36,457 bases of DNA from a virus, in IMG/VR virus record IMGVR_UViG_3300027759_004571, positions 1-36,457 of that record; one strand, 5' to 3'. The notes beneath the pieces are model-generated. The model was given only the letters and a program-made list of their open reading frames with translations, was not told where the DNA came from and made no database searches. The translations under genes and the position numbers were made by a program. Shown here one piece after another: positions 2 to 16,481 of the stretch (position 1 is the first letter of the stretch; every line of letters starts with the position of its first letter).

Positions 2-109
2 TCAGGTTCTAGTGGAACGAGTGGGTCATCAGGTACTTCAGGTTCTAGTGGAACGAGTGGGTCATCAGGTACTTCAGGTTCAAGTGGAACAAGTGGTTCT
101 TCAGGAAGT
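2..109 (+). repeat. 36-bp coding tandem repeat (collagen-like Gly-X-Y)
   Basis: Two 36-bp units (2-37 and 38-73) look identical base for base; a third (74-109) is degenerate. Each unit encodes 12 residues, four Gly-X-Y triplets with X/Y being Ser or Thr. Identity at synonymous sites points to recent slippage or recombination, so stalk length may vary between isolates. The array probably continues upstream of the window. Confidence 0.9.
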
Positions 110-2442: not shown

Positions 2443-2688
2443 ATGAAAGTTACACAAGAAGAGTTCGAAAAAATAAAAGAAATACGTCAATTAGGGACTA
2501 ATCTTATCAATGAGTTTGGTAAACTAAAAATGGATGAAATTGCCATTAATAAAAGATCTCAAGATCTTATAAAAAAGTACGATATCTTTGCCGAAGAAGA
2601 AAAAAAGTTCTTCGATTTACTTGCTTATAAATATGGTAAAGTGAATATCGATATCGAAACAGGTGAAATTACTGAATATTCAGTTTAA
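2443..2688 (+). CDS. Small helical protein, function unknown
   Basis: 81 aa from the ATG at 2443; the frame opens at a TTG at 2419 that overlaps the previous stop, but ATG is favoured. The chain is mainly charged helix (FEKIKEIRQLGTNLINEFG), then ends in KYGKVNIDIETGEITEY, a beta-turn tail of a sort I associate with small phage proteins. No membrane segment. It converges with the minus-strand glycosyltransferase, the two 3' ends overlapping by 9 bp, so no room exists for a terminator between them. Confidence 0.6.
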   Translation: MKVTQEEFEKIKEIRQLGTNLINEFGKLKMDEIAINKRSQDLIKKYDIFAEEEKKFFDLLAYKYGKVNIDIETGEITEYSV

Positions 2689-4956
2689 TTCTAATTTTTG
2701 AAAAACTTGTTTTGGTGTAATGGATCTTTGACACACATGTTGTTTCTTAGTTCCTTTGTATACAGGACACCAATCCCAATCTGAGGGGTCAAATGTAAAA
2801 ACTTCATCATTCCAACAAAACACACAAGTATTATCGTTGTATATCCTTGTTGTGTTTGACGTGAACTCATGACCTAGTTTAGCAAACCCATTTATCATAT
2901 AGGTATGTTTTCCAAGTGCCCAATTAATCCAAGATAAACCTGATCCGAGACCTATAAATTTGTCAGCATGAAGTAGAAGTGTCATTACTTCTTGCAGTGA
3001 TTTATTATTAAAATTGAATGTTTCAGGTATTTTGTATTCCTTTTGTGAAACAACAAAAATATCGTAACCTTTTGATTTAATCATTTGTGCTAACTCACAC
3101 CAATTCTCAAAGGACCATTCTTTACATCCTGCGGTCGCTTGTGGACCAAAAACTACATATCTTTTTTTGTGATATTTCTCATAGTTTTTTATATTGAGAC
3201 CATAGTTTAATTCAAAAAAATCTAATCCTAGTATATCCGTAGCGGTTTGTTGAAGAGGAATTAAATTAACTTGATTTGGGTTTCTGTCCGTATCATTCCA
3301 TAATCCATTCTTTTTGAACCATCCAATTCTATAAACCGCATAACAATTATGAGCTTCACCTGGTTTTATAAATTGAATATTATTATAATGGTTCAATCCT
3401 TCGAATAAAAAGTTTTGAAAGGTAGATAACAAAACCTTACAGTTATTTTTTTTCTGAAACTCGACAACATAAGGAACCCAACCTACGGTATCACCGAGAG
3501 AACTTGATTCCAACGAGATTAAAATTGTTTTTCCCACGGGGTCAAATCTATCAACAATTTCTCCATTTACCCTTATTCCCCATTCAATATAGTATTTGAT
3601 GGAGCAAGCACACCACATACCATTCGAGATGGTTGTTGAATATTTAATTTCATTTGTTTTCAAATCTATAAACTCAACAAAATATTCCTCAGGACTTTGT
3701 CCGACAATCTCAACTCTTGGCCCATCCAAATATGTAACTAATATGTCATTTTTAATTGGGTTTTGTTTGAAATCTTTCATAAATTCATCTATAATATTCT
3801 TTGCTTTTCGACTAACATTTGACCAACTAAATTCATTTCTTATAATTTCGGATTCTTGTAGAGCTTTATTTTTATAATATTCCCAATTAATGTAAGCGTA
3901 CAACATTTTCAAACTCAAATCTGATTTGTCGGGTTCATAATAATTACCAACCGAACTATTGAAGTGATTATAAGTGTTAGCCGATACGGGACTTTCACCT
4001 AATATTTTTACGGGAATACCTTTACCTGATGCAAATTCCATCTGACCTGAACACTCAGAGTATATGGATGGAATACCACAAGCCATTGCTTCAATTAGTG
4101 GTAAATTCCATCCTTCACTTCGAGCACAGGATAGGAAAACATTACAAGATTTGAGTATTTTTATGTAGTCCTCTCGAGATGGGAAATGTAAAATTTTTAT
4201 TCTATCATCATTTATCCCGAAATGTTCTAATCTCTCATCCGTGGTTGACATTCCATCATTACTAAAAGGATTGTCGATAGAAACTATCAAATCAACTTTA
4301 TCATTTTCGGAGAATGTTGTTAAAAATGTCTCGATGATTTCTTTTGTAAATTTCCTATAATCCCATCGACCAGCCAAGAAAAACTTAAAACGACCATCTT
4401 GAGTTAAGGGACAATTTACGATTTCGGGAAAGAAAACCAACGGATCAATACCTTCAGGAACCACTTTAACTTTGTTAGGATCATATCCCTGATTGATTGA
4501 ACATTGTCTTTGCCATTCAGACGGGACCCAAAGTTGATCGAATTCTTTTAACTTATCAAAAAAATGTTGTGGTTGAAGAGTCGATTCCCAAACATTGTAT
4601 GCAATTTTTGGCCCTACGTAATGGTCGTAAAAAATATGATGATCCGTCTCACACAACACAATATTCAAATTGTGAAAAAAGTTTTTGGTTTCATTTGGAT
4701 AAATTGGATAGTCTGATCTAGATCCATCGTTATTCCAAAGAATTTGTGAAAACAATAGTTGTTTATCGGTGTCATTTAGATATGGTTCTCCGTCATGGGG
4801 GGTTTCATTTAAACCATTCCAACTTGAACCTATGGTAAAATTTCTTACTTTTAATGAAAAATAATTTGATAATTCGCGAAAAAAATCTCGTGAATGTTGA
4901 TTATAACCTGTATTTCCTATGTAGGAACAATGAGTAAATATTTTTGTGTCGGACAT
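2680..4956 (-). CDS. GT4 glycosyltransferase fused to BAHT-type (TibC/Aah-like) heptosyltransferase
   Basis: 758 aa, ATG at 4956 reading leftwards. Residues ~1-395 are a GT-B retaining glycosyltransferase of the GT4 type: FLAGRWDYRKF (193-203) and the E-x7-E motif in SEGWNLPLIEAMACG (E281, E289). Residues ~403-758 resemble the autotransporter heptosyltransferases: an N-terminal beta module (YLDGPRVEIVGQ, then GMWCACSIKYYIEWGI), LGDTVGWVPYVVEF (487-500), LQQTATDILGLDFFE (568-582), and a C-terminal four-cysteine finger C711-x2-C714-x15-C730-x11-C742. That spacing is, as I recall it, that of the iron finger of TibC. BAHT enzymes transfer heptose to Ser/Thr on surface adhesins. It is the only large minus-strand gene in the island and diverges from the methyltransferase at 5005 across 48 bp. 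The acceptor, and whether the donor is heptose, are not shown. Confidence 0.85.
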   Translation of the reverse strand: MSDTKIFTHCSYIGNTGYNQHSRDFFRELSNYFSLKVRNFTIGSSWNGLNETPHDGEPYLNDTDKQLLFSQILWNNDGSRSDYPIYPNETKNFFHNLNIVLCETDHHIFYDHYVGPKIAYNVWESTLQPQHFFDKLKEFDQLWVPSEWQRQCSINQGYDPNKVKVVPEGIDPLVFFPEIVNCPLTQDGRFKFFLAGRWDYRKFTKEIIETFLTTFSENDKVDLIVSIDNPFSNDGMSTTDERLEHFGINDDRIKILHFPSREDYIKILKSCNVFLSCARSEGWNLPLIEAMACGIPSIYSECSGQMEFASGKGIPVKILGESPVSANTYNHFNSSVGNYYEPDKSDLSLKMLYAYINWEYYKNKALQESEIIRNEFSWSNVSRKAKNIIDEFMKDFKQNPIKNDILVTYLDGPRVEIVGQSPEEYFVEFIDLKTNEIKYSTTISNGMWCACSIKYYIEWGIRVNGEIVDRFDPVGKTILISLESSSLGDTVGWVPYVVEFQKKNNCKVLLSTFQNFLFEGLNHYNNIQFIKPGEAHNCYAVYRIGWFKKNGLWNDTDRNPNQVNLIPLQQTATDILGLDFFELNYGLNIKNYEKYHKKRYVVFGPQATAGCKEWSFENWCELAQMIKSKGYDIFVVSQKEYKIPETFNFNNKSLQEVMTLLLHADKFIGLGSGLSWINWALGKHTYMINGFAKLGHEFTSNTTRIYNDNTCVFCWNDEVFTFDPSDWDWCPVYKGTKKQHVCQRSITPKQVFQKLELN

Positions 4957-4984
4957 ATAAACTTGATTTGTTATAAAATAATAG

Positions 4985-5004
4985 TATTCTTTTAGAAAAA
5001 AAAA
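4985..5004 (+). promoter_or_regulatory. A-rich leader with possible promoter element upstream of the first methyltransferase
   Basis: The sequence TAGTATT-C-TTTT followed by a run of A leads directly into ATGATTGTTTT. Nearly the same arrangement precedes the paralogue at 5913. CTTG or TTTG lies about 19 bp upstream (4962-4970). It only partly fits TTTG-N19-TAnnTTTG, so a promoter is possible but weak. No Shine-Dalgarno is present. Confidence 0.3.
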
Positions 5005-5883
5005 ATGATTGTTTTTACAAGATACTCAGAAGATTTCCAAACCATTTTTTACAAAAATGTTTCAAATAAACCTTTAGATGTTGAAATTGTTGTATTCAGC
5101 TTAAATAAAAAAACTCCAAACTTTACAAATCGACTCAGATTAGAACCTAATGTTGAATGTTTTACATGGTTAGATAATAATTCTGAACCTGTTAAAGTTT
5201 TATTTTATGATCAACACACAAACAAATTATTAGCGCCATTCGTCTCAAACGTGTTAGACTCATTAAATGAATATGAATATAAAAATTTTGTTTTCACTAA
5301 GCAAGACGATGAATTGATTTCAATATTAAATAATTTTAATTTAAATGGGTTCGATACGAAAGGTGGTACGGACAAAGCAACTCGTCACAACTATACAAGT
5401 ACATATGCTAAATATTTAAAAAAAATACAATCTAAACCAATAAATTTCGTTGAAATCGGAGTACTATACGGTGGTTCTATGGCTATGTGGTGTAAGTATT
5501 TACCTCAGGCTAAATTTTTATTTTTTGATATAGAAAATCAAATAGAAGAAAGTATAAAAAAACATATAGATTGGGATAGGGTAAAATTACATATTTCGTC
5601 AGCGTATACTAATGAATCTGTACAGTTGACTAAGGAATATTTTAATGGTGGTATAGATTTTTTGTTAGATGATGGTCCACATACACTAGAGTCTATGATG
5701 GATTGTATTACTTTGTATTCGCCACTTATGAATAAAGGAGGTACAATTATGATTGAAGATGTCCAAAGTAAAGATTGGTTTGTATATTTATCTTCGGTTT
5801 GTCCTGCAAACACGACAATAGAAACTGTTGATCTTACTCAATCAGGTAGACACGATGACTTGATATTTATAGTTAATTTTTAG
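5005..5883 (+). CDS. SAM-dependent methyltransferase (CmcI/Methyltransf_24-like) with novel N-terminal module
   Basis: 292 aa. Residues ~1-98 form a module shared with the next gene (MIVFTRYSED start, FYDQHTNKLLAPFV, ending EYEYKNFVF). Residues ~115-292 are a class I methyltransferase: GTDKATRHNYTSTY (121-134), SAM-loop EIGVLYGGSMAMW (150-162), FFDIE (173-177), IDFLLDDGPHT (217-227) and MIEDVQ (249-254). The DK-x3-H-Y-x3-Y plus DDGxH pattern is typical of enzymes that O-methylate sugars or antibiotics, with DDGPH residues often binding a metal. It heads the plus-strand run of the island. Sugar O-methylation is inferred from family and context. Confidence 0.85.
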   Translation: MIVFTRYSEDFQTIFYKNVSNKPLDVEIVVFSLNKKTPNFTNRLRLEPNVECFTWLDNNSEPVKVLFYDQHTNKLLAPFVSNVLDSLNEYEYKNFVFTKQDDELISILNNFNLNGFDTKGGTDKATRHNYTSTYAKYLKKIQSKPINFVEIGVLYGGSMAMWCKYLPQAKFLFFDIENQIEESIKKHIDWDRVKLHISSAYTNESVQLTKEYFNGGIDFLLDDGPHTLESMMDCITLYSPLMNKGGTIMIEDVQSKDWFVYLSSVCPANTTIETVDLTQSGRHDDLIFIVNF

Positions 5884-5892
5884 ACATAAATT

Positions 5893-5912
5893 AGTATTAT
5901 TTTTAAAAAAAA
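5893..5912 (+). promoter_or_regulatory. Duplicated A-rich leader with TATTTTTA upstream of the second methyltransferase
   Basis: TAGTATTATTTTTA followed by eight A residues precedes ATGATTGTTTT. TATTTTTA at 5898-5905 fits TAnnTTTA, but no upstream TTTG lies at the right distance. The similarity to 4985-5004 shows the duplication included the leader. Confidence 0.3.
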
Positions 5913-6866
5913 ATGATTGTTTTCACGAGATATTCAGAAGATTATTATACCATTTATTATAAAAATGTTTCTGAAAAACCAATAGAGGTAAAAATTTTAG
6001 GATTTGAATCCTATAAAAAAAATCCAGCATTTGAAAATATTTTAACATGTGAACCACATGTTGAATATTTCACACATATGGGTCATACAAATTTACAAGG
6101 TAGAAAAATTTTAATTTATGATCGTAATACGAATGAATTGTTAGCACCGTTTGTTTTAGATGGTCCAAATTCACTTATGGATTATGAATATAAAAACTAT
6201 ATGTTTAATATATTATCAGTAAGTGATGAAACTGATAAATTTGGAATTTTATATTGTATTGATGAACATCACTTACATCCTGAATACGAAAACATTATTG
6301 ACATTGAAAAAGGTGATATAGTCGTGGATGTTGGATTTAATTTTGGTATGTATTCACTCAGAGCATTAAAAAAAGGTGCTAAAGAAATATGGGGATTTGA
6401 ACCTAATCGAAGGATTTATCAAAAGTTGAAAGAACATTATCCAGACCAAGATAGAGTTCATTTGTATAATTTTGCGGTATCAAACAAAAATGGTTTTGCA
6501 AGATTTAAAGAAGATTTTGGAACATTGGGTGCAGGTATCTGTGATACTCAGAATGAAAATGATATAAGAGACTTTTATGATATAAGAACTATAAATTTAT
6601 ATGATTTTTTGATTTATCATAATGTTCATCATATAGACCTATTGAAAATTGACTGCGAAGGTATAGAATATGATATTATTGAAAGTATACCTGACGAATA
6701 TTTTTCTAATATAAGAAAAATCCATATGGAATATCACATAAACACTGAAAGAAGAGTACAAAGTATTTTAGATAAGTTGAATAGAGTTGGATTTGAAATT
6801 ACATTTGGGAAGAATTCTTCAATAGACACTTGGATCGGTATGATTTACTGTAAAAAAAATGGCTAA
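5913..6866 (+). CDS. FkbM-family methyltransferase with the shared N-terminal module
   Basis: 317 aa. Residues ~1-98 are roughly half identical to the N-terminus of the preceding gene (MIVFTRYSEDYYTIYYKNVS; IYDRNTNELLAPFV). Residues ~130-317 are FkbM-like: VVDVGFNFGMYS (137-148, SAM loop), WGFEPN (160-165), the variable DIRTINLYDFL segment and LLKIDCEGIEYD (243-254). FkbM enzymes O-methylate sugar hydroxyls, or related groups, on polysaccharides and natural products. The 29-bp gap from the upstream gene and 8-bp overlap with the next suggest co-transcription and coupling. The same front end on two different methyltransferase types is notable. Confidence 0.88.
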   Translation: MIVFTRYSEDYYTIYYKNVSEKPIEVKILGFESYKKNPAFENILTCEPHVEYFTHMGHTNLQGRKILIYDRNTNELLAPFVLDGPNSLMDYEYKNYMFNILSVSDETDKFGILYCIDEHHLHPEYENIIDIEKGDIVVDVGFNFGMYSLRALKKGAKEIWGFEPNRRIYQKLKEHYPDQDRVHLYNFAVSNKNGFARFKEDFGTLGAGICDTQNENDIRDFYDIRTINLYDFLIYHNVHHIDLLKIDCEGIEYDIIESIPDEYFSNIRKIHMEYHINTERRVQSILDKLNRVGFEITFGKNSSIDTWIGMIYCKKNG

Positions 6867-7506
6867 CGGGGTTCATAAAATAACTGAAGAATTTGAAAAA
6901 GCTCTATCTGATTATACAGGAGCCCCCTATGTTGTTTGTCTAGATAATATGAGTAATGCTCTGTTTTTATCTCTGTACTATGAAAAAAATATAACAGGTT
7001 CGATTACTACTAACACCATAGAAATACCTAATATAACTTATCCTTCCGTACCTTGTGAAATTATTCATGCGGGGTTAAAAGTAAAATTTTATCCTGTGAA
7101 TGGACAAACTATCAAAGGTGAATATCAATTGAAAGGTTCAAATGTATGGGATTGTGCTCTTAGGTTTACAGGTGATATGTACCGTAAAGGGACTCATCAA
7201 TGTGTATCTTTCACAGGCCCTTATAAACATTTCAAGTTATCTAAGGGAGGAGCAATCCTGACAGATAATTTGGAAGCATACCATTGGTTCAAACGAGCAA
7301 GATTTAGTGGAAGACGAGAATGTTCATATCATGATGATTATTTCGATATGCTTGGTTGGAATTTCTATATGATGCCTGAACTAGCGGCAAGAGGACTTCT
7401 ACTTATGACTCAGTTTTATAATTTGGATGGTACCAAAAAATACAACGACGATTTGGAATTACCATATCCAGATTTATCTAAATTCGAAATATACTCAAAA
7501 ATTTGA
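6859..7506 (+). CDS. Short DegT/DnrJ/EryC1/StrS-type aminotransferase homologue
   Basis: 215 aa; the ATG at 6859 overlaps the previous gene by 8 bp. It keeps the order of DegT-family features: EEFEKALSDYTGAPYVVCLD near the N-terminus, YPSVPCEIIHAGLKVKFYPV (61-80), VWDCALRF (96-103, the cofactor-aspartate position, D98) and SFTGPYKHFKLSKGGAILT (117-135), where K123 is the best candidate PLP lysine. The usual family length is about 370-400 aa, so the C-terminal small domain is largely missing. It may be a shortened but active phage form that aminates a keto-sugar nucleotide, or a domain acting with a partner. The frame is intact, with no sign of recent truncation. Confidence 0.75.
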   Translation: MANGVHKITEEFEKALSDYTGAPYVVCLDNMSNALFLSLYYEKNITGSITTNTIEIPNITYPSVPCEIIHAGLKVKFYPVNGQTIKGEYQLKGSNVWDCALRFTGDMYRKGTHQCVSFTGPYKHFKLSKGGAILTDNLEAYHWFKRARFSGRRECSYHDDYFDMLGWNFYMMPELAARGLLLMTQFYNLDGTKKYNDDLELPYPDLSKFEIYSKI

Positions 7507-7511
7507 TAAAA

Positions 7512-8273
7512 ATGAACAACAACTTTTGCATTTTTTCAAATGACAATTACGTAAAAATATATCTGCCAGACCATCCATTTTCCGATAAGTTTTCAACAAG
7601 AGACAACCATGAGGTTATTTTTAGAAAGATACACACCATAATGATCAAAAACAAACTAATCAATGGAAATATCATTGATTTAGGATGTTGGGTTGGCGAC
7701 AACTCTCTTCCGTGGGCTAAAAATATAGACGGGATTGTTTTTGCAATAGACCCAAGTCTAGAAAACTGCCATTACATAAAACAGTTGGTTGAGATAAATG
7801 GCGTCAACAACATAAAAGTTATTCAAGAAGTTGTATCTGACGAGATAAAGGTTGTATCAACCAACGATGATTTATCACATGCTACTTTTGTTTCAAACAA
7901 TAGCGGTTTAACAAAATTAACATCAACAACTCTGGATAAGTTGTTTGAGCAAAATGAGATATTCGGAATTGACTACATACACTTGGATGTAGAAGCTATG
8001 GAATTTCAGGTGGTTAAAGGATCCGAAAAAATAATCACACACTTTCAACCAATAATCACTTTTGAACAACATCTAAATCAAGATGACTACATTTCACTAT
8101 CATCACATTTGAAAAAAAGAGGTTATTTAGTTTTTTTGATCAATGAAGTTTTGCCAGGATGCAATCCAGATTGTAGAAACTTCATTGCATTTCCAAGTAG
8201 AATTTCATTTGATAAGATAAACAAAGATTTAATAGAATACATTGGTAAACCAGAACTTTTTACAATAATATGA
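7512..8273 (+). CDS. FkbM-like methyltransferase
   Basis: The ATG at 7512 is chosen over an in-frame TTG at 7503 (253 aa). Motifs: IIDLGCWVGDNSLPWA (54-69, SAM loop), VFAIDPS (76-82), LTSTTLDKLFEQ (136-147) and YIHLDVEAMEFQVVKG (155-170), the FkbM acidic motif with LDVEAME in place of KIDCEGxE. There is a short N-terminal extension but no module like those at 5005 and 5913. It probably methylates a sugar in the same glycan. AAC and GAC codons look commoner here than in neighbouring genes, suggesting a separate origin. It overlaps the next gene by 4 bp. Confidence 0.85.
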   Translation: MNNNFCIFSNDNYVKIYLPDHPFSDKFSTRDNHEVIFRKIHTIMIKNKLINGNIIDLGCWVGDNSLPWAKNIDGIVFAIDPSLENCHYIKQLVEINGVNNIKVIQEVVSDEIKVVSTNDDLSHATFVSNNSGLTKLTSTTLDKLFEQNEIFGIDYIHLDVEAMEFQVVKGSEKIITHFQPIITFEQHLNQDDYISLSSHLKKRGYLVFLINEVLPGCNPDCRNFIAFPSRISFDKINKDLIEYIGKPELFTII

Positions 8274-9631
8274 AAAATTTAGTTTATTACTCGATAAGTA
8301 ATCAGACTGTTTATGCTGAAATGTTAAAGTTGTCTATCCAAACAATAGATGAAAGTAATGAAAACTTTTTTGATATATTAATAATCACTGATAAATTGTT
8401 TTATCAAAATAATTTATCAGATATCAAAAGACCAAACTTGTTTTTCCATTTTGTTGAACAACCAATAAGTAATGACCATATTTGTTTTAACAAATACTGT
8501 ATTTTTGATTGGGAGTTTGTAGATAAGTACGAAAAAATTTTATACTTAGATTGTGATATTTTAGTGAGTTATGATTTGACAAAACTTTTTAATAAATGTA
8601 ATAATTCAGATAAACTACATGTCGTAGTTGAGGATTACAGTATAAAAAACCACAATAGAATTCAATTCGGATTTGGTGACTATGATGACAAACAGATTCA
8701 AAGTTTTTCTACAAATTCAATTTACACCTTTAATGCTGGTAGTTTTCTATTTCTTAATACACAATTTATCAAACAACATTTTCATAATCTTAGAGAGTTA
8801 ATACGAAAAGGGGTTGAAAATTATTTTACAGACCAATCTTTTGTTAACTATTATTTCAATACGTTGAATGCTGTGAACTATGAAGGTTATCGTAAGGAGG
8901 TTGATTTAGTTTATGTAGTAGACTCAAACGTAAATAATCTTTTTGATTTTAATGATAAAATTTTTCACTTTTTGGTTGCCACATATTGGGGAATTGATAA
9001 ATTAGAGGTTATGAAAAACTTTTATGAAAGTAATCTAAAATCCAAAAAAAAATATAAAAGAGCACTTATAGGTGGGGGGGGTCACACAAGAGAAGTACTA
9101 GCACAAATGAATGTTAATTTACCAGTCTTTGTGGACGATGAATATTATGAACCGAAAAGGGGGTATTATAGATTATCAGATTTTGATTATGATAAATACG
9201 AGGTGATGGTTTGTGTCGGTGATTCAAAATTAAGGAAAAAGTTAGTGGAAAAGTTACCAAGCAATACTCGTTTTTTTTCGTATATCCACCCAACGGTACT
9301 GATACTAGGAGAGGATGTTGAAATTGGTGAGGGTAGTTTTATTGGTGCTTACTCAATACTAACCACAAATATAAAAGTTGGAAAACATTGTTTGATGAAT
9401 AGGTCTTGTCATATCGGACACGATTGTATAGTCGGGGATTATCTCAGTATGATGCCAGGGTCAATTATTTCAGGAAATGTTACCATAGGTGATAATGTTT
9501 ATTTAGGAACCAATTCAGCTATAAAAGAAAAAACTAAACTTTGTGATGATTTAGTAATTGGTATGGGGGGTATAGTTGTTAACAACATTGAAAGTTCGGG
9601 AACTTATATTGGCGTTCCCGTAAAAAAATAG
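8270..9631 (+). CDS. Bifunctional GT8-like glycosyltransferase / NeuD-PglD-type acyltransferase
   Basis: 453 aa, two domains. Residues 1-~255 are a GT-A domain of GT8 type: ILYLDCDILVSYDLTKLF (90-107) with the DxD motif D94-C-D96, FNAGSFLFLNTQF (154-166) and FTDQSFVNYYF (186-196). Residues ~262-453 match the sialic acid O-acetyltransferase NeuD / PglD family: a nucleotide-binding start RALIGGGGHTREVL (264-277), then left-handed beta-helix hexapeptide repeats from about 342, with HIGHDCIVGDYLSMMPG (381-397) holding the candidate catalytic histidines H381/H384. NeuD/PglD enzymes use acetyl-CoA on amino or hydroxyl groups of sugars, which fits an aminotransferase two genes upstream. The GGGG turn is encoded across a run of eight G residues at the domain junction. 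Confidence 0.87.
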   Translation: MKNLVYYSISNQTVYAEMLKLSIQTIDESNENFFDILIITDKLFYQNNLSDIKRPNLFFHFVEQPISNDHICFNKYCIFDWEFVDKYEKILYLDCDILVSYDLTKLFNKCNNSDKLHVVVEDYSIKNHNRIQFGFGDYDDKQIQSFSTNSIYTFNAGSFLFLNTQFIKQHFHNLRELIRKGVENYFTDQSFVNYYFNTLNAVNYEGYRKEVDLVYVVDSNVNNLFDFNDKIFHFLVATYWGIDKLEVMKNFYESNLKSKKKYKRALIGGGGHTREVLAQMNVNLPVFVDDEYYEPKRGYYRLSDFDYDKYEVMVCVGDSKLRKKLVEKLPSNTRFFSYIHPTVLILGEDVEIGEGSFIGAYSILTTNIKVGKHCLMNRSCHIGHDCIVGDYLSMMPGSIISGNVTIGDNVYLGTNSAIKEKTKLCDDLVIGMGGIVVNNIESSGTYIGVPVKK

Positions 9632-9634
9632 AGA

Positions 9635-10417
9635 ATGGAAATTAATAAAATAATATTCGCATCAGATGACAATCCAAACTATTTGGATCTTTGGAAATAT
9701 GTTTCAAAGGTGAGTAAACTAACCTTGGGTATTACACCAATTTTATTTCATATTACAGATCATTATAGTGATTTCATTCAAGATGAATATGGATTTATCA
9801 AAAAAATAAAAAAACATCCTAGTGTACCAACAAGTTTTCAAGCTCAACTATACAGGTTGTACGGTACTAAATTTTTTGGAAATGAAACTTGCTTGATATC
9901 TGATATTGATATGTTTACATTCAATTATGAATATTTTGTCAATCAAGTAAAACCATATGATCAAGACGATTTTATAATTTATTTATCAGACGCATATGAT
10001 TTATCAAGACCAGATACCCAACAGATGTGGGCATTAAATAGAGTTCCAATTTGTTATTTGTTGGGAAAGGGGGAAACATTTTGTAAATTAACCGAAAACA
10101 ATTGTGACTTTAACGAATATGTTGAGAGAGTAATTAATTTTGATTTTGGGTACGACTTTCCATTATTCCATAGAGATGAAATTTTTTTGGGAAAGTGTGT
10201 CTTTCGCAATTTCAACAAAATCAATCTTGTAAAATTGAAAAGAAATATATTAGATGTCAATTATATTCCTGGTAGGATTAATAGAGAAGATTTTTTTAAT
10301 TTTGATTATAGTTTACTTTATGATAAAAATTTTATAGATTGTCATATTCCCAACGATTGGAAAAATAATATGGATCATTTCCAACATATAGTTAAATCAA
10401 TTTTAACTTTTAATTGA
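9635..10417 (+). CDS. Putative GT-A glycosyltransferase
   Basis: 260 aa, starting 3 bp after the previous stop. A Rossmann-like N-terminus (INKIIFASDDNPNYLDLW) leads to QAQLYRLYG (69-77) and CLISDIDMF (86-94), where D90-I-D92 is the DxD metal and nucleotide-sugar motif. A later FPLFHRDEIFLGK segment resembles acceptor-side loops of GT-A enzymes. There is no membrane segment. The family is not one I can name; donor and acceptor are unknown. An abutting gene follows (TGA then ATG). Confidence 0.65.
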   Translation: MEINKIIFASDDNPNYLDLWKYVSKVSKLTLGITPILFHITDHYSDFIQDEYGFIKKIKKHPSVPTSFQAQLYRLYGTKFFGNETCLISDIDMFTFNYEYFVNQVKPYDQDDFIIYLSDAYDLSRPDTQQMWALNRVPICYLLGKGETFCKLTENNCDFNEYVERVINFDFGYDFPLFHRDEIFLGKCVFRNFNKINLVKLKRNILDVNYIPGRINREDFFNFDYSLLYDKNFIDCHIPNDWKNNMDHFQHIVKSILTFN

Positions 10418-11374
10418 ATGCAACTCCCTGATGAAAATAGATTGAATTTTGTAATTTATTTGTTTACAAGTTTTGCCGAGTCAATGACTGGTGGGTTAGT
10501 AGCACTTCATAAACTAGCATTCAAGTTGGCTGATAGGAACAATAATGTTTTTATTTTTTGTGAACCAGAGTTCCCACACCCGAACATTTATACAATTAAA
10601 TCCACCAAAACATACGATGTTGAGTTTATACAAGAGCATACTTGGGAACCATTTATGTATCCTTTACATAAAACAATATCTATTTATCCACAGATTACGA
10701 GCCAAAATCCATTTAATACAAAATATGTTACAAGGTGGATTTTATATGATACCCAAGAAGATATAGAATCAACATATGAAATCGATGATGAGTATTTTTT
10801 TTATGGTGATTTTAAGACATTTAAAAATGTTGAGTTCAAACAATTGACAGTTTTCAGTTACTTTTTCGATAAATTATACAAATTTAATCAGGGAAAACGT
10901 AAAACTTTTTGTCATATAATACACAAAAATACACCACCAGGAGGTGAAGAAATTTTTGAAAAGTTGGGTTCATTTGATCTGACAAATTGGAAAACTAGCG
11001 GTGGACATGAATATTTGAGGGATAGGTTGAACGAATATGAATATATGTTGACCTACGATCAAAAAACTTTTTATTCATTAGCCGCCGGATTATGTGGAAC
11101 CAAAACAATCATATTAGGGGCAGGCTCTCCTTATGTATTTACAAACAATGCTTATACAGAATCCGAGGATTATAAATCTAATATGTCACCAACAGAATAT
11201 AGAATTAGAAATCCGATACAAGCTTTCGGTGTTGCATATGGTTGGGATGACATCACTTGGGCTAACAAGACAATAGATTTTGTACCTGAGTACTTGAAAG
11301 AGTTGGAAAAAATTGATGATAAAACAGTAGACAGGTTTGTTAACTTTTGGAATAAAAAACTTAATATTACATAA
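10418..11374 (+). CDS. Putative GT-B-like glycosyltransferase (WavQ-like)
   Basis: 318 aa; ATG directly abuts the upstream TGA. The N-terminus has GGLVALHKLAFKLADRNNNV (25-44), the type of sugar-acceptor helix common in GT-B enzymes. The C-terminal half has YMLTYDQKTFYSLAAGLCGT (209-228) then KTIILGAG, resembling the conserved donor-site segment of WavQ-type LPS glycosyltransferases (TYDxxTFYSxxAALCG). The later FGVAYGWDDITWA pattern also fits that group. I infer transfer of a sugar onto the island's glycan; no donor can be read. Confidence 0.65.
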   Translation: MQLPDENRLNFVIYLFTSFAESMTGGLVALHKLAFKLADRNNNVFIFCEPEFPHPNIYTIKSTKTYDVEFIQEHTWEPFMYPLHKTISIYPQITSQNPFNTKYVTRWILYDTQEDIESTYEIDDEYFFYGDFKTFKNVEFKQLTVFSYFFDKLYKFNQGKRKTFCHIIHKNTPPGGEEIFEKLGSFDLTNWKTSGGHEYLRDRLNEYEYMLTYDQKTFYSLAAGLCGTKTIILGAGSPYVFTNNAYTESEDYKSNMSPTEYRIRNPIQAFGVAYGWDDITWANKTIDFVPEYLKELEKIDDKTVDRFVNFWNKKLNIT

Positions 11375-11375
11375 T

Positions 11376-13232
11376 ATGAAAGTAGCTTTAATTCAATTGT
11401 GGTTTGGACCTTTACCTGAATATTTTAATTACCATTTAGAAACGACAAAAAATATCGATTTAATTGATTTTTATTTTTTTACAGATCAAGATTTGGATAT
11501 CAAACAAGATAATTTTTTTTATCATAAAATAGATAAAGGATATGTCACAGACTATTTGTCCAAAAAATTGAATCATGAAATTAAAGTAAGTTCGGACAAA
11601 AAATTCTGTGATGTTAAGGCAGCTTTGAGTGATTTATTTTATATCTATATCAAAGATTATGATTATGTTGGTTGTTATGATATAGATACATTATTTGGTG
11701 ATGTTAACAAATTTTTGACACCTTTATTAGATCATTATGATTTCATCAGTGTCGGTGAGAAAACATTTTATAATAGATTATCAGGACCATTTTTGATCTA
11801 TAGAAATACAGAAGAGTTCAGAACTTTGTACAAAGTCCCTGAATTCATTGAATGTATGAACCGACCCGATGTAACTTGTTTCGAAGAAACTATCTTAGAC
11901 CAAATAGTTAGTCAACGTTATAGTAAATACATAATAAGTCAAACAAATGTAGAATCTAATAGTGGTAAAATTATTTATGAGGCAAGTTGGAACGGAGGAC
12001 AACTTTATTGTGATAATAACGAAATTTTCATTCATCATTTCTATAGAAAAAAAAACACACTATTTGGTAAAATAGGAAATACAATTTACACAAAATACAA
12101 AAAGATAATTTTAGATGATTTTATGTGGGTGGTTCATTTTTCACAAACTTATGAAAAATATGTACCACAACTTTTAGAGAGTGTCCACAACTACTCAAAT
12201 AGAAAGTGTGTAATTTATACTATCAATTACGATTCGCCTTTAAAGTTTGAGTATCAATATATTTCTGATCAATTTATTTTTATCAGATTGGATTTACAAC
12301 CTGGAAAATTAGATTTAAATGGCCGAGATCCTGTAATTATGAATTCTAAACCACTTATACTTTCCAATGTATTAGATAGGTTTCCAAATAAAAAATTTAT
12401 TCACATTGATACAGATATATCTTTAACGGTAAATTCGGATAAAATATCAAGACATTTTGATCAATTAGAAAATTATCCTTTGATCAATTCACATATTCAT
12501 GATGTAATTTATTTATGTGGTTTTGTTGAAGATGGGGGGTTCACAAGTTCATTACATACACTTTTAGATCTTATGGGTATTGAACCAAATATCCCATTAC
12601 CAAGGAGAAAATGCAATATTATTGTTTTTGACAAAAATTCAAAATGGTTTTTTTCAGAACAAATGGAAATATATGATAAGTTTAAAAATCATGAAGATCC
12701 TATAATTCTAGCATATTGGGATGAAGATTCAGCAAATACTGTACTCACAAAGTATCAATTGTACAAATCTTTACCACTTGTTGATATTGAAGAAACTTAT
12801 GACTTATCTTTGGACGTTTTGCATAACTATAGTTATAGTTTAACACCGATTTCAGAACACGTAGTTTTACCCAAAAATTTAAACGAAATACTTTTTTTTC
12901 ACGGATTTAAGACTAAAGAGGATTTTGAACTCATAAAAATGAACTATGATAAAAAAACATTAACTCATGATGATATTGACATCTACTATAGAAATAATAC
13001 TTTATTTATAGAAAGAAATAATTTTATGGTTGACAAAAAGTTTGAAAAAATTGTTGATTTAATTGTTTATAACAAGGATTATCAACAATTATTCCATTTT
13101 CCAAATCAAGATATATCCAATATTTATTTATTTTTTATAAATAACTTTGAACTAGAACCAAACGTTTACTTACTTGAAATTATAGAGAGTGAATCGAGAA
13201 AAGTAATATACCACAATAATTTTCAAATATGA
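11376..13232 (+). CDS. Two-domain putative glycosyltransferase: DUF6625-like plus second GT-A-like domain
   Basis: The ATG at 11376 is preferred to an in-frame TTG at 11337 (618 aa). Residues ~1-235 resemble DUF6625 glycosyltransferase-like proteins: VALIQLWFGPLPEYF (3-17), KFCDVKAALSDLF (76-88) and GCYDIDTLFGDVNKFL (99-114) with the DID metal motif. Residues ~236-618 are a different GT-A-like domain starting KYKKIILDDFMWVVHFSQTY, with FIHIDTDISLTV (341-352) as its DxD motif, then a beta-rich tail (~530-618) ending SRKVIYHNNFQI. The second domain is repeated as a stand-alone protein by the next gene. ATGA overlap with that gene suggests translational coupling. Confidence 0.75.
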   Translation: MKVALIQLWFGPLPEYFNYHLETTKNIDLIDFYFFTDQDLDIKQDNFFYHKIDKGYVTDYLSKKLNHEIKVSSDKKFCDVKAALSDLFYIYIKDYDYVGCYDIDTLFGDVNKFLTPLLDHYDFISVGEKTFYNRLSGPFLIYRNTEEFRTLYKVPEFIECMNRPDVTCFEETILDQIVSQRYSKYIISQTNVESNSGKIIYEASWNGGQLYCDNNEIFIHHFYRKKNTLFGKIGNTIYTKYKKIILDDFMWVVHFSQTYEKYVPQLLESVHNYSNRKCVIYTINYDSPLKFEYQYISDQFIFIRLDLQPGKLDLNGRDPVIMNSKPLILSNVLDRFPNKKFIHIDTDISLTVNSDKISRHFDQLENYPLINSHIHDVIYLCGFVEDGGFTSSLHTLLDLMGIEPNIPLPRRKCNIIVFDKNSKWFFSEQMEIYDKFKNHEDPIILAYWDEDSANTVLTKYQLYKSLPLVDIEETYDLSLDVLHNYSYSLTPISEHVVLPKNLNEILFFHGFKTKEDFELIKMNYDKKTLTHDDIDIYYRNNTLFIERNNFMVDKKFEKIVDLIVYNKDYQQLFHFPNQDISNIYLFFINNFELEPNVYLLEIIESESRKVIYHNNFQI

Positions 13233-14376
13233 TTTCAGTTAAGTATAAAAAGACAATCTTAGATGATTTTATGTGGGTAATTCATTTTTCACAAACTTAT
13301 GAAAAATGTGTTCCACAACTTTTGGCAAGTATTAATAACTACTCGAATAGAAAATGTGTTATTTATACCATCAATTATGATTCACCTTTAAAATTCAAGT
13401 ATCAATATATTTCCGATCAATTTATTTTTATTAGAATGGATATACCACCTGGAAAGTTAGATACGAAGGGTCGAGATACAACAATTATGAATTCCAAACC
13501 TCTGATACCATTAGATGTATTGGAAAGATTTCCTGATAAAAAATTTGTCCACATTGATACTGATATATCTTTAACGGTTAATTCTGACAAAATTTCTAAG
13601 TATTTTAATCAATTAGAAAATTACCCGTTGATTAATTCACATATTCATGATGTAATTTATTTCTATGGATTTACGGAAGATGGGAGTTTAACAAGTTCAT
13701 TACATACACTTTTAGATCTTATGGGTGTTGAACCAAATATCCCATTACCTAGACGAAAGACTAACATTGTAGTTTTTGATAAAAATTCGAAATGGTTTTT
13801 CTTAGAACAAATTGAATTATATTATCAGTTTAAAAACCATAACGATCCTATGGTGTTGGCAATATATGATGAAGACACTGCAAATGCCTTACTTACCAAA
13901 TATCAATTGTATAAATCATTACCACTCATTGATATTGAGGAAACCTATGACTTATCTATGGACGTTTTACATAATTATAGTTATAGTTCATCACCTATTT
14001 CCCAACATGTCGTTTTGCCCAAAAATTTAAACGAAATACTTTTTTTTCACGAATTAAAGACTGAAGAAAATTTTGAACTCATTAAGATTAACTATGGCAA
14101 AAAAACATTAAGTCATGATGACATAGATATCAATTATAAAAATGGGACCCTTTTTATAGAAAGAAACAACTTTATAGCAGATAAAAAATTTGAAAGAATT
14201 GTCGACCTAGTTATCTATACCAAAGAATATGAAGAAATATTTAATTTTTCAAATCAAGATATATTCAATATTAACTTATTTTTTATAAATAATTTTGAAT
14301 TACAACCGAACATTTATTTACTTGAGATTATAGAAAGTGAATCAAGGAAAGTAATATATCACAATAATTTTCAAAT
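12081..14376 (+). repeat. 1148-bp tandem duplication (copies about 12081-13228 and 13229-14376)
   Basis: Landmarks recur exactly 1148 bp apart: TTAGATGATT at 12111 and 13259, and ATGATTTCAG at 13229 and 14377. No net indel separates the copies. Because 1148 is not a multiple of three, copy 1 is the C-terminal part of the gene at 11376 while copy 2 is a separate gene in another frame. The two junctions both carry an ATGA stop-start overlap. The copies are about four-fifths identical in protein over the first ~160 residues, so the event is old. Confidence 0.9.
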
Positions 14377-14380
14377 ATGA
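13229..14380 (+). CDS. Stand-alone paralogue of the second GT-A-like domain
   Basis: 383 aa; the ATG overlaps the upstream TGA (ATGA). It is co-linear with residues ~236-618 of the preceding protein, including the DxD segment VHIDTDISLTV (107-117), NSHIHDVIYFYGF, and the beta-rich tail that ends with the identical SRKVIYHNNFQI. Both copies keep the presumed metal motif, so both may be active. Substitutions near the front (IPPGKLDTKGRDTT against LQPGKLDLNGRDPV) could alter specificity. The family is unnamed to me; the glycosyltransferase call rests on the motif, the partner domain and the island. Confidence 0.75.
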   Translation: MISVKYKKTILDDFMWVIHFSQTYEKCVPQLLASINNYSNRKCVIYTINYDSPLKFKYQYISDQFIFIRMDIPPGKLDTKGRDTTIMNSKPLIPLDVLERFPDKKFVHIDTDISLTVNSDKISKYFNQLENYPLINSHIHDVIYFYGFTEDGSLTSSLHTLLDLMGVEPNIPLPRRKTNIVVFDKNSKWFFLEQIELYYQFKNHNDPMVLAIYDEDTANALLTKYQLYKSLPLIDIEETYDLSMDVLHNYSYSSSPISQHVVLPKNLNEILFFHELKTEENFELIKINYGKKTLSHDDIDINYKNGTLFIERNNFIADKKFERIVDLVIYTKEYEEIFNFSNQDIFNINLFFINNFELQPNIYLLEIIESESRKVIYHNNFQI

Positions 14381-15198
14381 TTTCAGTAAAATACACAGAT
14401 GATGGAATAAATGTTAATGTTGAAAACACATATGGAATTTTCGACTTACCGCTCAAAGTATGTTTTAATAAATTTATTTCTAATGAAACAATTTGGTATT
14501 CACTCAATAATGACTATACCTATTCTTCGTTCCCACAAAAAGAAATGATTAATGTTGAGATTTTGGATTCAAAAGGAATACAGATCTTTTTCAAAAAATG
14601 GAACGTAGTTGAGGAAGGATCAATTATTTATCGACAACTTTATTTTTATTGTAAAAATATACTTAGTAATGGTCGAAAACCTAATGGGTTAGCAATTGGA
14701 ACTCATGATGGTGAGTTTGGTGAGTGGGTTCCCTTGGCGGATGAAGATTTAAGCAATATTGTTTTAGTGGAAGGTACAAAATCTCATTTCGATAAATTGA
14801 AAAAAAATTTTGAGAAAAACCAAAATATAACCTTCATACATGATATTATTACACCATATGGTGGTGATGTTACCTTTTTTGAAGGTGGACTTGGATACAC
14901 AAACTCAGTTGTAGAAAGGGTTATTCAATCATGGGAATCAGAAAAAATATATTCTGAAACAAGAACCTCAACATCCATACATGATTTGATAAGTCGATTA
15001 CAATCTTTAGATTGGATACATTTAGATTTGGAAGGGCTAGATGCTCAAATTATAATGAAAATGTACGAACTTCCTAATTTCATTATTTATGAACACAATA
15101 ATTTGCTTGAAAATGAAAAGAATGAATTGGAAACTTACTTGAAAGACAAAGGGTATCAAATTTTTTGTGACTCAGTGTCTTGCTCCGCAATAAGATAA
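14377..15198 (+). CDS. FkbM-like methyltransferase with an N-terminal beta-rich module
   Basis: 273 aa, ATGA overlap with the previous gene. Residues ~1-90 are a beta-rich module (INVEILDSKGIQIFFKKW, 58-75) unlike the one at 5005/5913. Residues ~100-273 are FkbM-like: GLAIGTHDGEFGEWVPL (104-120, SAM loop), IVLVEGTKSHFDKL (128-141, with VEG where EP is usual), then DWIHLDLEGLDAQIIMKM (212-229). It is the last island gene on this strand before a short convergent gene. Probable role: sugar O-methylation. Confidence 0.8.
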   Translation: MISVKYTDDGINVNVENTYGIFDLPLKVCFNKFISNETIWYSLNNDYTYSSFPQKEMINVEILDSKGIQIFFKKWNVVEEGSIIYRQLYFYCKNILSNGRKPNGLAIGTHDGEFGEWVPLADEDLSNIVLVEGTKSHFDKLKKNFEKNQNITFIHDIITPYGGDVTFFEGGLGYTNSVVERVIQSWESEKIYSETRTSTSIHDLISRLQSLDWIHLDLEGLDAQIIMKMYELPNFIIYEHNNLLENEKNELETYLKDKGYQIFCDSVSCSAIR

Positions 15199-15372
15199 TT
15201 ATTTTCTTTTATAGTTATTTAGTTCATTAAATTTTTTCAATACTTTTAAAGTATCTAAATAATTTTTTTCAGCCCTATCTATCTCTTTGAGGTCTGAACT
15301 AGATTCCAAAATGGAGTTATATTCCTTTTCAGCATCTTCAACTAATTTCTCTATAGATCTAATCAGTTTCAT
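15199..15372 (-). CDS. Small coiled-coil protein, function unknown
   Basis: 57 aa from the ATG at 15372; the frame stays open upstream to 15444, but this start sits 8 bp downstream of a TATATTTA element and removes an unconvincing leader. The product is almost entirely charged helix (IEKLVEDAEKEYNSILESSS, then LKEIDRAEKNYLDTLKVLKK). No plus-strand gene competes for this stretch. Its stop abuts the convergent methyltransferase stop. No family recognised. Confidence 0.55.
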   Translation of the reverse strand: MKLIRSIEKLVEDAEKEYNSILESSSDLKEIDRAEKNYLDTLKVLKKFNELNNYKRK

Positions 15373-15380
15373 TTGTTTAA

Positions 15381-15388
15381 TAAATATA
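15381..15388 (-). promoter_or_regulatory. TATATTTA promoter-like element (minus strand)
   Basis: On the minus strand the sequence reads TATATTTATTAAACAA then ATG. The TATATTTATTAAA core is the same as in front of the gene at 34235. It fits the Bacteroidota -7 form TAnnTTTG except for the last base. No clear TTTG is seen 19-21 bp upstream. The rest of 15373-15491 holds no other feature I can support. Confidence 0.5.
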
Positions 15389-15491
15389 TCACAAATGTTA
15401 TTTAGGTAACAGTACCAGGAAATCACAAATTGAAATATTATCACTTAGACTTTTCAGTTTCCATTTGTCAACATATGATTAATATTATTTT

Positions 15492-16481
15492 GTGTATAAT
15501 TGGAAAAATAAATTATTATTTGTTTCGGCTCAACCTGACATACCATATTTTCATTGGCAATGTGAAGTTTACTTGAATAATTTTTTGGATTTTGGTATAC
15601 CAAAAGAAAATATTCATGTATTATTTGGAACTCAAGATGCTGCCAAATTATCCAAAGGTGGTCAAAAATTAAAAAAATACACAAAAAATATTTTTACATT
15701 TCAAGATCAACGAGACAAAAAACACTATATCCCAAGTATCAAACCATTTCTGATTTACAAATGGTTGAAACAAAATAAAAAAAGAGGTAAACTACTTTTT
15801 GTACACGACTCGGATATCACATTTAATTCACTTCCCAACTTTGATGAATTGATAGATGATCATATAAATTATGTTTCAGATTGTAGAGGTTACTTAAATT
15901 ACAATTATTTAAGATCTTGTGATAATAGATACTACGAAAAACACTCAGATAAAATTTACAATGGTCAATTGATTCGTGAAATGTGTGACATCATAGGTGT
16001 TGAACCTAGAACAATTAGAGACCAAAATGACAATACAGGGGGTGCACAATATTTATTAAAAGACCAAGATTGGCAACTTTGGTATAAGATATACAAAAAT
16101 TCAAACTTATTGTTTGATAGAATAAAAAGATTTGACAATGAATACCCAATTGAAAATGGTCAACTACAGATTTGGACAGCAGAGATGTGGTCAATACTTT
16201 GGAATCAGTGGTTTATGGAAAAAGAAGTGAAAATATCGAATGACCTAAATTTTTGTTGGGCTAGTGATAAAATTATAAATTGTGAGGATAAAAAGATATT
16301 TCATTTAGCTGGAGTTGTTGAAGATATGAAAAAGAATAGTTTTTATAAAGGTGATTTTATTGATAAAAATCCATTAACATTATTAAAAAACAACATAAAC
16401 TTTTTCGATTTTATCGATAAAGATTCCGCAACTAATTTGTATGTTAAATGGATGAAAAATGTTTCAAAAAAACTAACTTGA
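15492..16481 (+). CDS. Putative GT-A glycosyltransferase (HDSD motif)
   Basis: 329 aa. No ATG lies in frame near the front; a GTG at 15492 is the only reasonable start, since an in-frame TAA lies at 15480. Motifs: LLFVSAQPDIPYFHWQCEVY (8-27), KLLFVHDSDITF (100-111) with D106-S-D108 as the DxD motif, NYVSDCRGYLNYNYL (126-140), NTGGAQYLLK (181-190) and EMWSILWNQWF (231-241). These resemble a phage-borne GT-A-like group, but I cannot name the family. It closes the island and precedes the Thr/Pro-rich proteins by 14 bp. Confidence 0.65.
   Translation: MYNWKNKLLFVSAQPDIPYFHWQCEVYLNNFLDFGIPKENIHVLFGTQDAAKLSKGGQKLKKYTKNIFTFQDQRDKKHYIPSIKPFLIYKWLKQNKKRGKLLFVHDSDITFNSLPNFDELIDDHINYVSDCRGYLNYNYLRSCDNRYYEKHSDKIYNGQLIREMCDIIGVEPRTIRDQNDNTGGAQYLLKDQDWQLWYKIYKNSNLLFDRIKRFDNEYPIENGQLQIWTAEMWSILWNQWFMEKEVKISNDLNFCWASDKIINCEDKKIFHLAGVVEDMKKNSFYKGDFIDKNPLTLLKNNINFFDFIDKDSATNLYVKWMKNVSKKLT

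Follow-up and report, generated by a model that had tools for sequence, protein, structure and literature searches.

Gene content of the island

The window analysed here is the whole 36,457-nt stretch of IMG/VR record IMGVR_UViG_3300027759_004571 (positions 1 to 36,457). Twelve ORFs, which we designate by their first coordinates, follow one another almost without gaps between positions 2,680 and 16,481; the first-pass annotation had spoken of eleven genes, while its own list also sums to twelve. The island is not one operon, because its first ORF (2680..4956) lies on the opposite strand. Eight of the twelve ORFs belong to sugar-active or sugar-modifying families with support from profiles or fold, and structure and profile searches did not place most of the island proteins outside sugar-active families, which confirms the initial description of a sugar-chemistry island. 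Matches above the Pfam gathering cut-offs comprise GT4 plus GT9, Methyltransf_24/RMNT_CmcI, FkbM, DegT and GT8 plus hexapeptide acyltransferase.

The island is preceded by a collagen-like tail-fibre gene (2..1564 (+), 5' truncated at the contig start), whose product is the proposed acceptor. It harbours an SG[ST] tract and five 51-aa repeats (153-nt period), and it matches PHROGs tail fibre (4.5e-20) and Pfam Collagen, the latter slightly under the cut-off (25.6 vs 27.2 bits). Downstream of the island, 16496..18607 (+) codes for a Thr/Pro-rich, Cys-rich virion-like protein with 45 Cys, a candidate acceptor whose position is conserved in relatives, and 18832..22845 (+) for another such protein, with 45 TP dipeptides and a weak virion match (phrog_26672, 1.1e-5).

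Four ORFs code for predicted methyltransferases. The product of 5005..5883 (+) is a sugar O-methyltransferase candidate (Methyltransf_24/RMNT_CmcI), and those of 5913..6866 (+) and 7503..8273 (+) are FkbM proteins (49.9 and 47.3 vs 22.7 bits). The fourth protein, encoded by 14377..15198 (+), is FkbM-like (IDWLHLDxEGLDAQ), with a score of 26.2 bits under the profile cut-off of 37.7. Proteins 5005 and 5913 have an N-terminal domain of ~95 aa in common (56% identity over 99 aa).

The aminotransferase homologue encoded by 6859..7506 (+) scores above the cut-off of the DegT/DnrJ/EryC1/StrS family (PF01041; 42 vs 19.8 bits). Its PLP-site residues D98 and K123 are invariant, K123 aligning with the Lys of perosamine synthetase, and N168 is kept. 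However, it is a short form of 215 aa, compared with about 360-400 aa for the full two-domain form, and matches only positions 25-98 and 163-242 of the 360-position profile; it lacks the C-terminal domain and a portion of the middle. Similarly, the acyltransferase encoded by 8270..9631 (+), of the NeuD/PglD/VioB type, exceeds the cut-off of its family (TIGR03570, NeuD/PglB/VioB; 163.2 vs 160.8 bits, profile 3-202 of 202) but differs from it in being fused to a GT8 domain; in relatives, the two are separate genes. The short aminotransferase and the lack of any nucleotide-sugar dehydratase found in the window show that the gene set is not near-complete, contrary to what had been claimed.

Five further glycosyltransferases had also been listed, two of which are still putative. 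No family match was found in Pfam, NCBIfam and other profile searches for the products of 9635..10417 (+), which has a DxD motif (SDIDM) and, in relatives, forms a fusion with a Methyltransf_24 domain, and of 10418..11374 (+), in which GT-B-like motifs are seen only by eye. The next two ORFs share a DxD-bearing domain that we call X, which relatives fuse to the TibC-type enzyme described below. In 11337..13232 (+), X follows a DUF6625 domain (95.3 bits) that also has a DxD motif; the true start is likely ATG 11376, since homology begins there. 13229..14380 (+) is a tandem duplicate of this X domain, with 83% identity over 1,153 nt. The AlphaFold2 model of DUF6625-X is poor (pLDDT 50), and its Foldseek matches to chondroitin polymerase and COLGALT1 were not taken as proof.

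The product of the last ORF, 15492..16481 (+), has a GT-A fold (AlphaFold2 pLDDT 95.1), with glycogenin, UGGT and GTA/GTB as top Foldseek PDB matches (best 1.5e-5, TM (target) <=0.57). The DxD residues D106 and D108 are invariant. This protein belongs to phrog_4417, a group so far without known function, and the gene downstream of its homologues codes for at least nine Cys in 30 of 33 loci. Profile searches of the PDB were uninformative for X, 14377, 10418 and 15492. Common ancestry of the accessory beta domains (the TibC-type barrel, the 14377 N-terminus, the X C-terminus and the 5005/5913 N-terminus) was not supported, the best hhalign probability being 19%.

A TibC-type enzyme fused to a GT4 domain

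The protein encoded by 2680..4956 (-) consists of a GT4 domain (aa 1-395) followed by a homologue of TibC/AAH-type protein O-glycosyltransferases (aa 403-755). In bacteria, TibC links sugars to adhesins. It had been described as a GT4-heptosyltransferase fusion; the fusion stands, but its GT9 half is not of the LPS type. This half exceeds the curated NCBIfam cut-off of TIGR04414, the TibC/AAH protein O-heptosyltransferases (221.6 vs 200 bits), and its PDB matches in a profile search are to TibC only (8e-41). Residues D489, T608, K612 and W676 correspond to TibC D110, T226, K230 and W305, and the iron finger, C711-x2-C714-x15-C730-x11-C742, has the spacing of TibC residues 339/342/358/370. Judged by its sequence, the GT9 domain is a TibC/AAH-type protein O-glycosyltransferase homologue and not an LPS heptosyltransferase, and therefore the virion is a likely target. 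The Pfam TibC_1st domain (N-terminal beta-barrel) is absent from the Pfam matches of this protein; it was found in the proteins of two relatives and, weakly, in Microcystis phage Mel-JY01.

Enzymes of the TibC family are dodecamers that transfer heptose from ADP-heptose to Ser, with the gene of the autotransporter acceptor adjoining; in TibC, Asp110 is the catalytic base, Thr226 and Lys230 serve the beta-phosphate, and Arg286, which is required, contacts adenine N1 (PMC4358343). Among 90 phage sequences, the equivalents of D110, K230 and W305 and the four iron-finger Cys are invariant, and that of T226 is present in 89. In contrast, the Arg286 position is occupied by V/T/S/L/I/A in at least 89 of the 90, and by V657 in the window protein, in a stretch aligned without gaps. 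Because Arg286 is replaced, the donor of the phage enzymes may be other than an ADP-sugar.

Heptose pathway genes were not found in the window, nor in most relatives. However, the island of one relative (G005) codes for homologues of the heptose kinase, adenylyltransferase and epimerase of the ADP-heptose pathway, with scores below curated cut-offs, and HldD-like genes lie near the TibC-type enzyme in 5 of 80 loci. With these observations, the argument that phage heptose genes are absent and that the donor is hence not a heptose was dropped.

Genetic context in other phages

Relatives of the TibC-type enzyme are encoded on at least 596 viral stretches. A GT4 domain is fused to it in 74 of 80 phage loci, and other fusions in relatives are FkbM-X-GT4-TibC, GT4-TibC-X-PIG-L and GT4-MT24-TibC. 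A tail sheath gene is present within three genes of the enzyme in 40 of 56 non-redundant loci, directly downstream in 30 of them, compared with none of 80 mini-DegT control loci. The gene order in these phages is SG[ST] fibre, enzyme, sheath, tube. No sheath-like ORF was found within the ~20 kb loci of the window's own lineage. We found no autotransporter partner beside the phage enzymes, their neighbours being the tail fibre in the window or sheath and tube genes.

Relatives of the window were reached via the virion-like gene 22856; scans using 8270 or 11337 as a single query yielded no viral relatives. The island recurs in 12 relatives, flanked by tail fibre and Thr/Pro/Cys-rich virion-like genes. 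Since its genes are co-located there, and not scattered, their chance grouping is excluded. Such islands are common in relatives, contrary to the earlier notion that the set is unusual in phages. The gene content varies strongly among the 12, and genes turn over quickly and independently; the outer sugars therefore probably differ from phage to phage. DegT and acyltransferase genes occupy the same fibre-to-virion-gene interval in 8 of the 12, and a NeuD/PglD-type gene lies within three genes of DegT in 41 of 51 non-redundant loci. Co-location, fusions of the parts and this pairing indicate that the proposal of one shared pathway was probably right.

A proposed pathway and its alternatives

We consider it likely that the island encodes a cytosolic pathway for O-glycosylation of the phage's own tail-associated proteins. 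An initial sugar, probably donated as a nucleotide-activated heptose, would be attached by the TibC-type domain of 2680..4956 to hydroxyl groups on side chains of the adjoining repeat-rich fibre (in TibC, those of Ser). The GT4 fused to this domain would then lengthen the chain, together with GT8 and the GT-A-type proteins. We infer that an amino sugar with an N-acyl group would be made from a keto-sugar of the host by the short DegT together with the NeuD/PglD-type acyltransferase, and that the FkbM and Methyltransf_24 enzymes would O-methylate, and thus cap, the chain. Variable outer sugars would perhaps guard the tails against decoys or proteases, or against being recognized by the host.

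The island might instead serve more than one purpose, the TibC-type enzyme and 15492 acting on the virion and the DegT, acyltransferase and methyltransferase genes forming a separately mobile cassette with another target. The independent turnover of island genes fits this idea, as does the mini-DegT pair, which often occurs without the TibC-type enzyme (14 of 51 loci have both) and which in Flavobacterium phage immuto is surrounded by sugar genes with no tail genes annotated. However, methyltransferase and X domains are fused to the TibC-type enzyme in a single chain, and DegT and acyltransferase genes share the above interval in most relatives; we regard such a division as unlikely.

Somewhat less probable still is that the island changes the surface polysaccharide (O-chain) of the host during infection, excluding other phages. 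GT8, DegT, NeuD/PglD and FkbM enzymes are typical of O-antigen clusters, and a precedent is found in the glycosyltransferases of the pelagimyophage tail-fibre region, for which this role was proposed (PMC7029224). However, no transmembrane segments were found in the 12 island proteins of the window or in 97 island proteins of relatives; the islands thus lack any flippase, Gtr-type enzyme or transferase that initiates synthesis on a lipid carrier. In addition, the lead enzyme groups with protein O-glycosyltransferases and is placed among tail structural genes. Modification of phage DNA bases to block restriction, known for many phages and one of several roles suggested for moraphage glycosyltransferases (PMC12619734), is very improbable here, as the TibC family acts on protein, the context is that of tail genes, no DNA-modification gene was seen in the window, and the thymidylate synthase/base hydroxymethylase family is missing from five records with the TibC-type enzyme.

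Relation to known systems

Like TibC/AAH (BAHT, TIGR04414), the phage enzymes combine the family score with the catalytic Asp, Thr/Lys, Trp and iron-finger spacing, and their genes adjoin that of a repeat-rich surface protein; unlike them, they are fused to GT4 in most loci, have Arg286 replaced, have a phage fibre or tail gene as partner and are surrounded by genes for chain-extending and methylating enzymes (PMC4358343). In gene content, the island resembles the fibril glycosylation cluster of Mimivirus, which codes for a DegT-type aminotransferase, an N-acetyltransferase, several glycosyltransferases and a methyltransferase and is proposed to decorate the fibres of the virion with methylated N-acyl amino sugars (PMC10117803); it differs in belonging to a phage, in its TibC-type anchor and short DegT and in having no dehydratase. 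The host-recognition cluster of pelagimyophages is hypervariable, with tail fibres, several glycosyltransferases including GT8 and a reported rfaE; the available part of that paper reads the glycosyltransferases as host O-chain modifiers and reports no TibC-type enzyme (PMC7029224). Moraphages, jumbo phages of aquatic habitats that are predicted to infect Bacteroidota, are similar as large aquatic phages with a sigma factor, a primase, an exonuclease subunit, glycosyltransferases (four core orthogroups) and variable genomic islands, but neither a TibC-type enzyme nor an island of the window type is described for them (PMC12619734). Glycosyltransferase islands near phage tail genes are already known, and the TibC-type enzyme as a phage anchor appears to be new.

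Phage glycosyltransferase islands are usually taken as modifiers of host O-antigen or of phage DNA. The presence of a TibC-type homologue among the tail genes of hundreds of phages makes glycosylated tails a third, directly testable reading, for which this homologue would supply the missing anchor step. We give about even credence to the broader proposal that phages have a large, undescribed TibC-type branch of protein O-glycosyltransferases, integrated in tail gene clusters and with altered nucleotide recognition. This branch would anchor to fibres and contractile tails a heteroglycan that the phage encodes and that diversifies fast, as a tail glycocalyx made in the cytosol and without a lipid carrier. 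Our analysis suggests that the window phage assembles sugar chains of its own design and covers its tail proteins with them, as do hundreds of others with a TibC-type enzyme. Microcystis phage Mel-JY01, the one isolate in which a TibC-type enzyme was found, is a named phage in which tail glycosylation can be sought. Glycosylated tails would bear on phage adsorption, on decoys and on the recognition of phages.

Gene content of the island

The viral contig of 36,457 bases harbours twelve near-contiguous ORFs at positions 2,680-16,481. Only the first is read from the opposite strand; the remaining eleven are in forward orientation. The G+C content of this island (0.285) is lower than that of the downstream sequence (0.328). 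Pfam matches above the curated cut-offs were obtained for six of the twelve products, namely a GT4-GT9 fusion (first ORF, 2680-4956, minus strand), a Methyltransf_24/RMNT_CmcI protein, a DegT protein (6859-7506), two separate FkbM proteins encoded before and after the latter, and a GT8-hexapeptide acyltransferase fusion whose acyltransferase was assigned to NeuD/PglB/VioB by NCBIfam. Two different methyltransferases share an N-terminal domain of ~95 residues, encoded at 5005-5300 and 5913-6200 (56% amino acid and 69% nucleotide identity). ORF 14377 (ORFs are named by their start positions) has a sub-threshold FkbM match in NCBIfam. ORF 11337 combines DUF6625 with a DxD-bearing domain called X, and the following ORF, 13229, is a second copy of X in tandem (83% over 1,153 nt). 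Family and profile searches, Pfam and NCBIfam among them, gave no assignment for ORFs 9635 and 10418. A SET-domain protein is encoded between the fibre gene and the island (1546-2124; 44 bits vs 22.4) and also occurs in relatives' islands (L085).

The last product (15492-16481) belongs to phrog_4417, a PHROGs family of so-far-unknown function. Its AlphaFold2 model, built with 35 relatives, has a pLDDT of 95.1, and the top Foldseek matches in the PDB are the GT-A glycosyltransferases glycogenin, UGGT and blood-group GTA/GTB. As judged from this model, phrog_4417 is a GT-A-fold family. In 30 of 33 non-redundant loci (L272-L351), the product of the gene directly after it has at least nine Cys.

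The TibC-type domain

Residues 403-755 of the opposite-strand protein match TIGR04414, the TibC/AAH autotransporter O-heptosyltransferases, with 221.6 bits (cut-off 200), but LPS heptosyltransferase I with only 30.7 bits. In the PDB, this region matches only TibC, in structures 4rap and 4rb4 (8e-41). In TibC, Asp110 is the catalytic base, Thr226 and Lys230 lie at the beta-phosphate, Trp305 at heptose O4 and Arg286 at adenine N1, and Cys339/342/358/370 form the iron finger (PMC4358343). Over 90 phage sequences, not de-duplicated, the Asp, Lys, Trp and four Cys are invariant and the Thr is present in 89; the window's cysteines (C711-x2-C-x15-C-x11-C) have the TibC spacing. The domain is predicted from its sequence to work like a TibC-type enzyme. 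Arg286 is substituted in at least 89 of the 90 sequences, and tests of family membership found neither this residue nor an autotransporter partner; hence, we describe these proteins as TibC homologues that form a phage branch, not as certified family members.

The TibC study makes no reference to phages (PMC4358343). In the parts of the open-licence literature consulted, O-heptosyltransferases and phages are co-mentioned only in passing, in work on amino-acid starvation in Cronobacter. TibC-type enzymes in phages appear undescribed within that literature.

Genomic context and gene turnover

A profile scan found at least 596 viral stretches with a TibC-type enzyme, and 74 of the best 80 have the GT4 fusion. 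A tail sheath gene, recognised like the tube by sequence motifs that PHROGs confirmed on examples, lies within three genes of the enzyme in 40 of 56 non-redundant loci, directly downstream in 30; a tail tube gene is present in 32. The same sheath test on 80 loci of short DegT proteins gave 0. Three loci (L219-L221) have the order SG[ST]-rich fibre, GT4-TibC, sheath, tube. The window's own lineage was reached via the virion-like gene 22856. In twelve relatives, the enzyme occupies the same place, adjoining a collagen-like fibre and upstream of Thr/Pro/Cys-rich proteins. No sheath is found close to it in this lineage. The records analysed are metagenomic and often fragmentary, and the window contig itself starts within fibre repeats.

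The other island genes vary among these twelve relatives, with DegT and the acyltransferase in eight and 14377 homologues in seven. A ~6.7 kb block of G004 is missing from G017, with flanks 76-81% identical. Fusions in relatives include FkbM-X-GT4-TibC (L099), GT4-TibC-X-PIG-L (L260, L269) and 9635 with Methyltransf_24. The PIG-L-type deacetylase domain is C-terminal to X in L260 and L269 and also comes after X in L264 (6290-7753). A protein of Microcystis phage Mel-JY01 annotated as methyltransferase FkbM (PP395634.1, 4750-8430) is a GT4-Methyltransf_24-TibC-type fusion (TIGR04414, 317 bits).

The short DegT proteins keep the PLP-site Asp and Lys, lack the C-terminal domain and have no close PHROGs family. 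Of at least 587 viral stretches, the best 80 (L106-L185) encode proteins that are mostly 209-217 residues long and 76-82% identical; 84,980 genomes yielded only six matches, all on MAG contigs. In 41 of 51 non-redundant loci, a NeuD/PglD-type gene lies no more than three genes away. In a few loci, a WbqC-like protein (PF08889) follows instead of an acyltransferase (L142:6644-7351, 5.8e-72; L189:2778-3485). The homologue of Flavobacterium phage immuto is 77.6% identical to the window's, a sequence likeness that only hints at Bacteroidota as host group.

Donor sugar and possible target

One relative (G005) encodes in the same island homologues best matching heptose-7-phosphate kinase, heptose-1-phosphate adenylyltransferase and ADP-heptose 6-epimerase (NCBIfam, all below cut-offs). 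HldD-like genes lie near the TibC-type enzyme in 5 of 80 loci, and a heptose kinase homologue is present in 6 of 46 records. The window has none of these three homologues; therefore, the host would supply the donor. Hydropathy predicted no transmembrane segment in the twelve island proteins or in 97 ORFs of relatives' islands, but it did pick out a membrane protein in another part of the window.

In pelagimyophages, glycosyltransferases encoded in the tail-fibre regions have been read as host O-chain modifiers (PMC7029224). Among moraphages, four glycosyltransferase orthogroups are core (PMC12619734), and the same paper cites reports of virion glycosylation in mycobacteriophages. In Mimivirus, a comparable sugar cluster is proposed to serve the fibrils (PMC10117803).

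The analysis establishes the family assignments, motifs, genomic context and fusions; we infer the transfer, its donor and acceptor and the order of steps as follows. The TibC-type domain would anchor a sugar on the fibre, and the GT4, GT8 and GT-A proteins would lengthen the chain. An N-acyl amino sugar would come from DegT and the acyltransferase, and the methyltransferases would cap the chain. The island's target is probably the virion proteins.
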